A stretch of DNA of 64,000 nucleotides, taken from Candidatus Gastranaerophilales bacterium. GTDB taxonomy: Bacteria; Cyanobacteriota; Vampirovibrionia; Gastranaerophilales; Gastranaerophilaceae. The first letter of the stretch is position 1, and each line of letters starts with the position of its first letter. Of this stretch, positions 2,959-7,602 are shown one piece after another. The notes under the pieces are model-generated. The model made no database searches. It saw only the letters and a list, made by a program, of their open reading frames with translations, and was not told the DNA's origin. The stretch covers positions 1 through 64,000 of the forward strand of contig CALVEK010000008.1 in NCBI GenBank assembly GCA_944326555.1, in the 5' to 3' direction. The position numbers and the translations under genes are program-made.

Positions 2959-2982
2959 AAAAAAGTCCCGTCTAAACGAGAC
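2959..2982 (-). terminator. Rho-independent terminator of the candidate sRNA
   Basis: On the minus strand GTCTCGT pairs with ACGGGAC (one G-U) around a TTAG loop, followed directly by TTTTTT. It ends the RNA that starts near 3177. Confidence 0.85.
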
Positions 2983-3177
2983 AGAACCTTTGCAATCTTT
3001 AATCTCTTCCCAATATTCTCTTATTCCCCACGGCTAGTAGCCAAAAACCTCATTAAGTCTAACCTTTTTCATTCTTCCCAATAAATCTTAAAAATCCTTT
3101 TTCTTTAAAACTTCCACGATTATCCCTAATCCCCGGAAACAGCCATCACCTCTTTCTAATTTAAGTGGTTGCCCACT
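2959..3177 (-). ncRNA. Candidate GGA-rich small RNA (~220 nt)
   Basis: A free-standing transcription unit without an ORF: a consensus-like promoter (TTGATA-N17-TATGAT at 3212-3184) and a strong terminator (2982-2959) delimit about 220 nt. The RNA opens with a GTGG-GCAA-CCAC tetraloop hairpin. Next is a stem TTCC/GGAA enclosing GATTA-GGGA-TAATC, then a GGCT-ACT-AGCC hairpin. At least seven GGA motifs occur, several as GGGA, and one is displayed in the GATTAGGGATAATC loop. That arrangement is typical of CsrA/RsmA-sequestering RNAs (CsrB/C, RsmY/Z). I see no match to 6S, tmRNA or RNase P signatures. Presence of an RNA gene is well supported; the CsrB-like role is a hypothesis. The stretch 2854-2958 between it and tRNA-Pro shows nothing. 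Confidence 0.6.
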
Positions 3178-3183
3178 GAAACA

Positions 3184-3212
3184 ATCATACAAAGACAAAA
3201 AAATTGTATCAA
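3184..3212 (-). promoter_or_regulatory. Promoter of the candidate sRNA
   Basis: -35 TTGATA (3212-3207), 17-nt spacer, -10 TATGAT (3189-3184) on the minus strand, placing the start near 3177, just before the first hairpin. Confidence 0.75.
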
Positions 3213-3359
3213 CAGAGATTTTGTAAAATAAGTTTTACAATTGACCATGCCCCCTAGTACAAGTGGGTAAAAAATATTTTTACAAACTTAATGAAAAAAT
3301 ATTAAAGCATAAAATAATAAATAATAAAAAACAAATAAACAAAAGTAATAAAAATAAAA

Positions 3360-3662: not shown

Positions 3663-6600
3663 TTATTTAGAAAGAGTATTTAAGTTGTATTTAGTATTTG
3701 CCAATTTTACATAAGGATTTTCAACTCTGCCTTTGAAAGAAAGTTTGTTTCCTTTAAAATCTTTTTCCCTAAGCAAAATTATACCTGCATTTCCAAGAGG
3801 AATATCATTTTGCTCATTACCATTGGCATCAATTCTTTTTATCATTTTAGAATCGACAACTTTAAACTTATTATTAGGATTTAAAGCATCAACGTAAATG
3901 GTACCGACGGGCAAGCCATTATCGCTAATACCTTCTAAATTTATGTATGGAATAGAAACGTCAAGTCCTCTATTTTCAGGCATTTTGTCATAGCCATGAG
4001 AGTGTAAGATAGCAATTGCATCAGTCTTGTCATTGTATCTGTACAAAGCAAATGCAACACCTCCGCCGTTAACGTTTTGTTCAGCAAAAGGTACCGAAGT
4101 ACCGTTTACTAAAGCAGAAGCAGCTTCTTTGTTTCTTATATTCATAACATCTGCAATTGTTTTCTTATAAGTTTTTACAAATGAATAATCATCATCGTTT
4201 AACCAATCCCAACGGATAGCATTTCTGTTTTCTTGTTTTTCATTTTTGCAGAATGTTTCCCAACCTGTCATGCCAAACTCATCGCCTGCATAATTTGTCG
4301 GGTTACCGGGTAGTGCGGCCATAGCAAAGGCTATTGAACGATATTTTGTCATTGCAGGTTCAAGAATATTTTTCAATGCGTTAGCTTTTAATTTTTTAAT
4401 TTTATCTTTATTTCCATTTACATAATTTCTAAAATCTTCGTTATCATAAGCAGCCTGTCTGATAATATCGTCCAAACTATAATCAAAAGGTCTTACACCA
4501 AAGTTTTCTGAATCAAACTTTCTTGCTTGACCATTATATGTATAATTGCCGTTTTTCAATTTTTCAATAGCTGCAAAAATAGCACCTTTTTGCGAATCAC
4601 TCAACTCATTAAATTCAGCCGTAGACTTAATGCCATTACCCAAAACTCTTGCAACTTCTATTGCTTTATCTTTATTAAATGCAGCCACATCCATTGCTAA
4701 CAAATGCAATATTCTTGGTTTGTCTTGGTTACCAACAAATCTGTGAGCAAAATTCAACGCATCTAAGATTCCTGAATCAAAATAAGAACCATCGCCCTTA
4801 AGTTTATCAGAAACTTTGCTCAATCCTCCGCCATTACCTTTATCATTTTGTCCATACATTGAAGGCAATGAATCATAGAAATAAGAATAATCTGATACAG
4901 TTGAAAAACCTGCTTTGTCGAGGAATTCTGAAATGTGCATCTGACCATCCATATCGGTTAACTCACCAATAGTATATGAGCGAGGATTATACTGTCTTAC
5001 CCCTTTGTTAAATTTATTCCAAAAGTCAAAGATAACGCCTTTATTTTTGTCTGTACTGATTTTTCCTGCCTCATGAGCTTCCCAATCAGCAACGTCTTTT
5101 GCAGCGTCTATTCTCCAATCCAAACCTGATTCAGTTTTCTCGATTATCAGTTTTGCAGCATTTATAGTATCAGAATCAAATTTATTTACCCTAGCAGCTA
5201 AGAGATTTACAAATTTCTCTTCATTCTGAACAGGAATATTTTTTATTCCGTTCTTTATAAGAGAAATAAGTTCCATTGCTGTATCTTTTGGAGAAACTTC
5301 ATATTGCAGACCCAACTTATTCAAATCAATTGAATGCAATTCATTCAAATCATATTCCAACATCTCATTGTTATCTTTGAGTTGAATTTGCGGAGCAATC
5401 GCTGAAACAAATAAGAATTTAGCAACATCAGGAGAAATCACAGAATAAATCTCTTTACCTTCTTGAGTTAATTCACCGTTTTCAAATAAAACTTTACCGG
5501 TTTTTTCTGCAACTTTGCCCAAAATATCCATAGCCTTATCTGTCATGTCATTGGCATAGATTAAATCCATTTTTTGGTATAGATTTCTGTATTCACTAGG
5601 AACCATGTCATAGTAATCATTGCCCATTTGGAAAGTCTGGTATCTTGTCATACCAATAGTATCTGCAGAAACTGCCATATTCTTAATATAAGGATATGCC
5701 AAAACACCCATTAAATCAGGAGAAAACTCAATTGCATCTAAAGGGAATGACATCAAACCATCAGTAACATTCTGAGGCATTGTTGTTTGCTTCAATTTAT
5801 ACTTTCTATTACCGGTTATCTGACTAATAGTAAGTAAATTTTGCAACGGCGAAACACCGCCATTTTCTTCTGCTTTAAATACTTCTTTTGCACCTTTATG
5901 AAGTTTACCCTCATTAACAAGTTCTTCTATCGCTGATTTGAAAGAATTAAAATCTCTCTTATCGCCTAATTTTTGAGATAACTCACTTGCAGTGAACTCT
6001 GTAAGCATTCTGGCGACTTCCGAAGTCCAGAACTTACCTACCTGAACAGTATCATCTTGAACTTGATATGGGGAAACCATTAATGCTTCTCTTTTTTCAG
6101 GTGTAGCTTTGATTTCATTAACTGAAGATTCTGATAAAACAAATCGTTTTTTAGAAATATCGCTATTCCCTACCCAAAGAGAAACACCACCGTCTTTATT
6201 TGATTTAACCAATTTAAAGTTTGGCCATTTTGTCAGAGTATCTTTAAATTCTATAGATTTGTCAGAATGTTTTAGTTCTTTATATTTTTTGTAATTTGCT
6301 TCTACAGACGGCAAATCAACCCTTGCATGGTATGCCTGAACTGAGTCTTTGTAATTTGCAATCTCAAAATTATCACCTGACTCTTTTAAATCATATACAT
6401 CAAATATTTCATTATTATTCATCTGCTCTTCAGAAGCAAGTCTGTCATCGAAAACTTGGATATATGTAGGTTTAGAATTATCAACTGTACTGTGTTTAAT
6501 TTCTTTTTCTTTGTAACCGTCAGCAGTTTTTTCATAAACAATTCTATAAGGTGCATTAACAAGTTTAATGTGAATATGTTTATTTACTTCTTCATTTTTT

Positions 6601-7481
6601 GAAAGTATACCGAATCTAACAGGAACATTTGCCAAGTCTTTTGTTTCAAACATAGGAACAAAAGGACTGTCTACACCCCAATTCATAATATCTTTAATAT
6701 GAATACCCTCAATGCCTTCATTAACAAACGCACCATCAGCAGTCCAAGACATGCCATGTGAATACAAATTGAGCATTAAGTTTCTGAAATCTTTATAAGA
6801 ACCTAAATTGTTTGTGATTTGATAAGGGTTAGTTGTCCAATAACCATGGCTGGATTTATTATCCTGTCCAAAAATCGGAGTACCTAAAATATTTCTTACA
6901 CCAGCTTGAGCAAGCTCATCAATTTTTTCATTCATAGAAACTAATGTGCCACCCAACATATTAAAGTGATTTCTTTTCGCATTAGAAGGTGTCTTCACAT
7001 TGAATGAATCAACCAAAACATGTTCCATTTGTCTTGGTCTTGTAGAGTTTGAATGAGTAACAGGTATAGCCATAGTATAGTTACCATCGGCTTTTGCCCC
7101 TTTATCAGTGTATTCTCTGCCATTAACAGCAAATCTGTACCCAAGTATATGATCAGCATCAAGTTTGTAATCAGATGCTTTTAAAACAACAGACCCAAAT
7201 CCTTCGGGAACGTCGTAACAATCTTCATTCAGATAAGTACCATCTTTATGTTTTTTTGAATCATTTCTCTGTAATTTAAAGAAACCGTCAGCATCTCTTT
7301 GCAAAACAGTAACATACAGTTTTGTACCTTTTGGTGCATTAGGAAGATTAAACTTGTAAATATCGTTTCCTCTGGAATCTTGAGTAAGCACATGACCTGA
7401 AAAACTCGGATTCGACTTCTTGCGAGAACTCAACGGAGTAGAAACATTCATCCTATTTGATTTCAAACTATCAATATTCAC
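3663..7481 (-). CDS. Very large GH13-like alpha-glucan-active enzyme
   Basis: Likely hydrolase or transferase acting on alpha-glucans. An N-terminal beta-sandwich (about 35-150) precedes a GH13-type barrel. The conserved regions are recognisable: region II RIDAAKDV (nucleophile Asp near 792), region III TIGELTD (acid/base Glu near 840), region IV FVGNQDKPR (Asp near 920, with NQD replacing the usual NHD), and the LPGNPTNYAGDEFG motif (about 1056-1070). More than 500 residues separate the region-I-like segment (about 245-255) from region II, a very large insertion of unknown function. There is no signal peptide. A PSFSG motif lies near the N-terminus, like other lineage-specific proteins here. 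I chose GTG at 7481 because GAGG lies 8 nt upstream; a further GTG at 7502 is in frame. Confidence 0.8.
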   Translation of the reverse strand: MNIDSLKSNRMNVSTPLSSRKKSNPSFSGHVLTQDSRGNDIYKFNLPNAPKGTKLYVTVLQRDADGFFKLQRNDSKKHKDGTYLNEDCYDVPEGFGSVVLKASDYKLDADHILGYRFAVNGREYTDKGAKADGNYTMAIPVTHSNSTRPRQMEHVLVDSFNVKTPSNAKRNHFNMLGGTLVSMNEKIDELAQAGVRNILGTPIFGQDNKSSHGYWTTNPYQITNNLGSYKDFRNLMLNLYSHGMSWTADGAFVNEGIEGIHIKDIMNWGVDSPFVPMFETKDLANVPVRFGILSKNEEVNKHIHIKLVNAPYRIVYEKTADGYKEKEIKHSTVDNSKPTYIQVFDDRLASEEQMNNNEIFDVYDLKESGDNFEIANYKDSVQAYHARVDLPSVEANYKKYKELKHSDKSIEFKDTLTKWPNFKLVKSNKDGGVSLWVGNSDISKKRFVLSESSVNEIKATPEKREALMVSPYQVQDDTVQVGKFWTSEVARMLTEFTASELSQKLGDKRDFNSFKSAIEELVNEGKLHKGAKEVFKAEENGGVSPLQNLLTISQITGNRKYKLKQTTMPQNVTDGLMSFPLDAIEFSPDLMGVLAYPYIKNMAVSADTIGMTRYQTFQMGNDYYDMVPSEYRNLYQKMDLIYANDMTDKAMDILGKVAEKTGKVLFENGELTQEGKEIYSVISPDVAKFLFVSAIAPQIQLKDNNEMLEYDLNELHSIDLNKLGLQYEVSPKDTAMELISLIKNGIKNIPVQNEEKFVNLLAARVNKFDSDTINAAKLIIEKTESGLDWRIDAAKDVADWEAHEAGKISTDKNKGVIFDFWNKFNKGVRQYNPRSYTIGELTDMDGQMHISEFLDKAGFSTVSDYSYFYDSLPSMYGQNDKGNGGGLSKVSDKLKGDGSYFDSGILDALNFAHRFVGNQDKPRILHLLAMDVAAFNKDKAIEVARVLGNGIKSTAEFNELSDSQKGAIFAAIEKLKNGNYTYNGQARKFDSENFGVRPFDYSLDDIIRQAAYDNEDFRNYVNGNKDKIKKLKANALKNILEPAMTKYRSIAFAMAALPGNPTNYAGDEFGMTGWETFCKNEKQENRNAIRWDWLNDDDYSFVKTYKKTIADVMNIRNKEAASALVNGTSVPFAEQNVNGGGVAFALYRYNDKTDAIAILHSHGYDKMPENRGLDVSIPYINLEGISDNGLPVGTIYVDALNPNNKFKVVDSKMIKRIDANGNEQNDIPLGNAGIILLREKDFKGNKLSFKGRVENPYVKLANTKYNLNTLSK

Positions 7482-7602
7482 AATATCAACCTCATAACAC
7501 ACTGACTACCAATATTAAGATAAAACAGAAAAAAATTTGCTAATCATGCCCCAAATCTACAATACATTGTTACAATAACTTAAAGAAACACAAAAACAAA
7601 AA

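Follow-up and report, generated by a model that had tools for sequence, protein, structure and literature searches.

On comparative sequence evidence, the region studied here holds a genuine small RNA gene that is common to most members of one uncultured gut family, relatives of the cyanobacteria. The window, a stretch of 64,000 nucleotides from a Candidatus Gastranaerophilales bacterium, carries the feature on its minus strand at positions 3212 to 2961, where a promoter is followed by a predicted transcript of about 217 nt and an intrinsic terminator. As far as the tools used can show, this RNA is the first representative of a hitherto undescribed family that extends across most of one Candidatus Gastranaerophilales family. 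What can be read from the letters is a predicted promoter lying beneath a conserved site, a purine-rich and apparently untranslated body, a terminator and a motif complementary to 16S rRNA. How these parts work together is a matter of tentative interpretation, and the explanation that we favour, with slightly less than even confidence, is a free-standing regulatory RNA under the control of an activator, whose 5' region would dock 30S subunits in a STAB-SD-like manner and whose G-runs would contact targets.

The preliminary description of this DNA had proposed a small RNA gene standing alone between its own promoter and a terminator, with a transcript of about 220 nt without an ORF, situated directly downstream of the SRP RNA gene on the same strand, and each of these proposals held up. 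The sigma-70-type promoter TTGATA-N17-TATGAT was found by the promoter scan at 3212-3184 on the minus strand, with a score of 10 of 12. Promoter-like sites in the region occur at the level expected by chance (4 found, 4.2 expected), so the credibility of this one rests on the conservation of its -10 element and of the TTG of its -35 element, both of which recur in the 23 homologues of the genus. The predicted purine-rich RNA of about 217 nt occupies 3177-2961, with its 5' start placed from the -10 element, and the terminator scan found 13 pairs at 2991-2961; the stem is kept in the genus, with one pair altered on both sides. There is no ORF of at least 60 amino acids on the minus strand at the small RNA region, and in the genus homologues, 23 in all, the longest closed frame ranges from 11 to 33 codons; by this ORF test the predicted RNA is noncoding. 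The large SRP RNA lies upstream at 3618-3361, also on the minus strand (RF01854, 84 bits), and a tRNA-Pro(GGG) lies downstream of the small RNA at 2854-2779. All 23 genus genomes have the SRP RNA directly upstream in the same orientation. Farther upstream, a 1279-aa ORF (3663-7502, minus strand) contains an alpha-amylase catalytic domain (PF00128) together with long stretches that have no Pfam match.

Known RNA families do not account for the gene. The Rfam covariance search of the region gave no match at the gathering threshold, nor anything other than noise up to E=10, and this holds for the CsrB, RsmX, RsmY and RsmZ models among the rest. The preliminary description had named 6S RNA and RNase P RNA as families to be checked, and the region matches neither RF00013 nor RF00010. 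Both are free-standing noncoding RNAs like the one described here, but the candidates for both are sited elsewhere in the genome: the best 6S candidate, at C40:3267-3447, scores 36 bits, below the gathering score, and the RNase P copy is at C32:4478-4828 (239 bits). A search of one literature collection for small RNAs of this lineage found nothing relevant.

The comparison with relatives carries most of the argument for a real gene. A DNA search recovered the RNA at 70-79% identity from every one of the 23 Candidatus Gastranaerophilales genomes in the genus, and the same search gave short fragments only outside the genus. In the genus alignment, the promoter, several blocks of the RNA and the terminator are kept while the spacers vary freely, and the most conserved part of the whole locus is the DNA upstream of the -35 element. 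This upstream block, CATTAAG-TTTGTAAA ... GGGCATGGTCAATTGTAAA, covers about 90 bp (3210-3299, minus strand), usually occurs in one copy per genome and stands at a fixed distance from the -35 element, its core beginning 40-41 nt before it in nearly all loci. A sequence model of the block (R1) finds it in the source genome with an E-value of 6.7e-16 and matches 157 of the 192 order genomes, virtually all of them in this one family; in the other families of the order, this model search saw nothing except a weak match at 1e-4 in G048. Of the 191 family genomes, 135, from 32 of the 41 genera, contain the core GGGCATGGTCAATTGTAAA when at most 2 mismatches are allowed; almost all of them have a single copy, and the reversed control gave almost no matches. 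Two matches for the block or the RNA were seen in G022 (at C2:201118), G228, G252 and G210, which may be second copies or split alignments.

Within the block we found two related half-sites, CATTAAG-ATTGTAAA and CATGGTCA-ATTGTAAA; in the window they read CATTAAG-TTTGTAAAA (3277-3292) and CATGGTCA-ATTGTAAAA (3233-3249), both on the minus strand and about 45 bp apart. The pair suggests two binding sites for a regulator. Just upstream of the -35 element lies the palindrome TTGTAAAACTTATTTTACAA (3221-3240), which is the sole zero-mismatch match in the genome; its inner 18 nt, TGTAAA-N6-TTTACA (3222-3239), are kept within the genus, and only the left half is present in most other genera. Taken as a whole, the block looks like a dedicated activator site, and in the mechanism that we favour a dedicated activator would bind there and switch the small RNA on.

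The second element shared across genera is motif A, AAAGAGGTGATGGC (3142-3155, minus strand), which is Shine-Dalgarno-like (SD-like), is complementary to the 3' tail of 16S rRNA and is the most conserved part of the RNA itself. It follows the pattern AAAG[AG][AG]GUG[AG]UGG[CU] in 133 of 135 extracted loci from 32 genera, and the remainder of the RNA can hardly be aligned between genera. Two reduced versions of the gene keep little besides motif A and AGGGAU: one (L192) has about 55 nt from motif A to the terminator, and the other (L150) lies just before anmK. Two family genomes give GGCUGGAUCACCUCCUUU as the 16S tail, and the near-invariant GUGAU of motif A is complementary to the AUCAC in it; the A-to-G variants of the motif retain a wobble pair, and in the GGAG variants a single mismatch or bulge interrupts the pairing. 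In the source genome, the duplex between motif A and the tail has an energy of -15.8 kcal/mol, which is equalled by 2% of shuffles. Across loci, the mean is -15.4 kcal/mol; shuffled versions of the motif give -8.9 kcal/mol, with 2.5% of them as good, and the strongest competing site elsewhere in the RNA gives -10.8 kcal/mol. Because all copies of motif A share one ancestry, the duplex test amounts to effectively one observation with p of about 0.025. Moreover, any purine-rich stretch pairs easily with the anti-SD sequence, which weakens the argument from the duplex.

Motif A contains a nearly invariant AUGGC behind a strong SD-like sequence, and its AUG becomes GUG in g41 and g52, as might be expected if it started a tiny ORF (M-A-x...) and the transcript were translated into a short peptide or acted as a start-stop minigene. 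Nevertheless, we regard this as very unlikely. The frames that begin at this AUG run from 2 to 57 codons and have no common sequence; 31 of 133 loci have a stop at the third codon, two clades of the genus are out of frame with each other owing to an insertion of one base, and ACG replaces AUG in one locus (L078). The gap from the SD-like core to the AUG is 2 nt, whereas in genes of the source genome it is mostly 5-10 nt. The codon-3 stops and the dissimilarity of the frames lead us to set aside a conserved peptide starting at this AUG.

Researchers have described an SD-like sequence that does not start translation: the STAB-SD near the 5' end of the cry3A mRNA of Bacillus thuringiensis binds 30S subunits and blocks RNase J1 (PMC4113751). 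By analogy, motif A most likely serves for STAB-SD-like docking of 30S subunits without a translation start. In the proposed mechanism, 30S subunits would dock on motif A without initiating translation, as on the cry3A element, and the docked subunit would shield the small RNA from decay at its 5' end. The likeness to the cry3A case lies in an SD-like sequence that is complementary to the 16S tail and does not direct translation. The differences are that motif A belongs to a free-standing noncoding RNA in a different lineage, that docking is here predicted from complementarity, and that the position of the motif varies. It often lies 10-40 nt from the predicted 5' end; the distance to its start has a median of 32.5 nt and is at most 25 nt in 50 of 132 loci, but in about a third of loci the motif is about 65-140 nt away, and thus fits a 5'-end stabiliser less well. 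If motif A does dock 30S subunits without translation, it would represent a STAB-SD-like element on a free-standing small RNA. We also considered that the RNA might accumulate when the activator fires, occupy the anti-SD of free 30S subunits and thereby tune initiation globally in gut Gastranaerophilales, but this extension seems to us rather improbable.

Downstream of motif A, the RNA body is, judged from the alignment, weakly structured and almost without a conserved fold: the conserved pairing recovered by RNAalifold is limited to the terminator, a 3-bp stem and a short hairpin (UUCC/GGAA), with one pair altered on both sides. The hairpin, TTCC-GGG-GATT-loop-AATC-GT-GGAA (3112-3138, minus strand), has a variable loop sequence. 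What is conserved instead is a series of short G-run islands between 3132 and 3010 on the minus strand, with GGA at 3132, 3115, 3078, 3027 and 3010, each kept in 20-23 of the 23 genus members amid variable A/U-rich spacers. The GGCTACTAGCC block followed by GTGGGGA (3032-3042, minus strand) is largely invariant in the same 23 members. In the mechanism that we favour, these islands would act, once the RNA is docked, on target RNAs or on a protein. Short, single-stranded G-rich islands of this kind are also what one would expect of an antisense RNA, in which CGGGGAUU, AGGGAU and GUGGGGA would be seeds for CU-rich mRNAs and motif A another seed with no role at the ribosome; about 16 of the 32 genera share AGGGAT. 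Two observations speak against this reading, namely that, of all sites in the RNA, motif A is the one that pairs best with the 16S tail and that the islands other than motif A differ between genera. We consider a base-pairing RNA with G-rich seeds a serious rival, albeit an unlikely one.

The preliminary description had likened the RNA to the CsrB/RsmZ type, whose GGA motifs sequester CsrA, and this resemblance did not survive comparison, although the observations behind it are correct. There are indeed at least seven GGA motifs, seven outside the terminator and eight with it, and one of them sits in the GATTAGGGATAATC hairpin loop, which is present in the source genome. It had also been stated that a genome without csrA would count against the idea; csrA is present (G000 C3:55667-55822, E-value 1.8e-22), so this objection does not apply. 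Further points in favour of GGA islands that sequester CsrA, at least in csrA-bearing genera, are that csrA occurs in 21 of 23 genus genomes as well as in the source genome, that the five GGA sites of the islands are so well kept in the genus, and that the 18-nt palindrome upstream has the geometry of the UvrY/GacA box, TGTAAG-N6-CTTACA (PMC4682653).

However, the number of GGA motifs follows from composition: the seven observed are no excess over the 7.9 (sd 1.7) that dinucleotide shuffling gives on average, and mononucleotide shuffling gives 5.7. Within the genus, GGG is as conserved as GGA (0.69 and 0.65, against 0.33 for other trinucleotides); the csrA-free genera g10, g33 and g7 show the same bias, and the csrA-positive g40, g45 and g52 show little GGA conservation bias. 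Only 7 of the 23 genus homologues retain the loop GGA of GATTAGGGATAATC. In the family, csrA itself was found in 70 of the 191 genomes, spread over 18 of the 41 genera. The RNA occurs in 14 of 18 csrA-positive and 18 of 23 csrA-free genera (Fisher p=1), with a similar number of GGA motifs per RNA in loci with csrA (5.2) and without it (4.8), and in genus g37 most sampled genomes have csrA and none has the upstream block. Since the RNA is equally common without csrA, CsrA cannot explain its retention across the family. In addition, csrA lies 40 bp downstream of fliW (PF02623, 128 bits), and FliW is a protein antagonist of CsrA in bacteria such as B. subtilis and Campylobacter/C. jejuni (PMC7652899, PMC4894983).

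Compared with CsrB, CsrC, RsmX, RsmY and RsmZ, the RNA is similarly free-standing, with an intrinsic terminator and GGA in an A/U-rich context, and at the level of the genus it also shares a conserved upstream palindrome of similar geometry. The palindrome is placed just before the -35 element rather than near -183, and most other genera have a half-site. In contrast to those RNAs, the GGA motifs here show no excess and no link to csrA, the loop GGA is variable, the lineage lies outside the Gammaproteobacteria, fliW is present, and Rfam gives no match. On these comparisons, the RNA is probably not a CsrA sponge, and we judge the sponge reading to be improbable even for csrA-bearing genera; a CsrA role restricted to the source genus is still conceivable. 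The name CsrB is best given up unless binding of CsrA is demonstrated, and the mechanism that we favour would not require CsrA. The case may serve as a worked example of how counting GGA motifs in an RNA rich in purines can point to CsrA binding for which the phylogeny gives no support.

Finally, the RNA could be a leader or attenuator of the gene that follows, which is anmK in many genera and tRNA-Pro in the source genome. The reduced locus in which only motif A is left in front of anmK (L150) and the lack of a terminator in most loci of g9 are in keeping with this. Terminators were found in most genera, and none was found for most loci of g9 and g45, so that the RNA may continue into the next gene in these two. 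Nevertheless, the downstream neighbours vary by genus (tRNA-Pro, anmK or a phosphopentomutase-like gene), the tRNA-Pro is on the opposite strand in one genus member and absent from the examined flank of others, and in most genera a terminator lies between the RNA and the next gene. Because the neighbours differ and terminators mostly intervene, we reject a leader or attenuator for anmK and regard this explanation as highly improbable. In genera where anmK comes next (loci L025, L093 and L101), its ATG lies at most about 25 nt from the terminator, behind a TATAAT-like box and without an SD sequence; thus, anmK may be leaderless there, with a promoter that overlaps the terminator.
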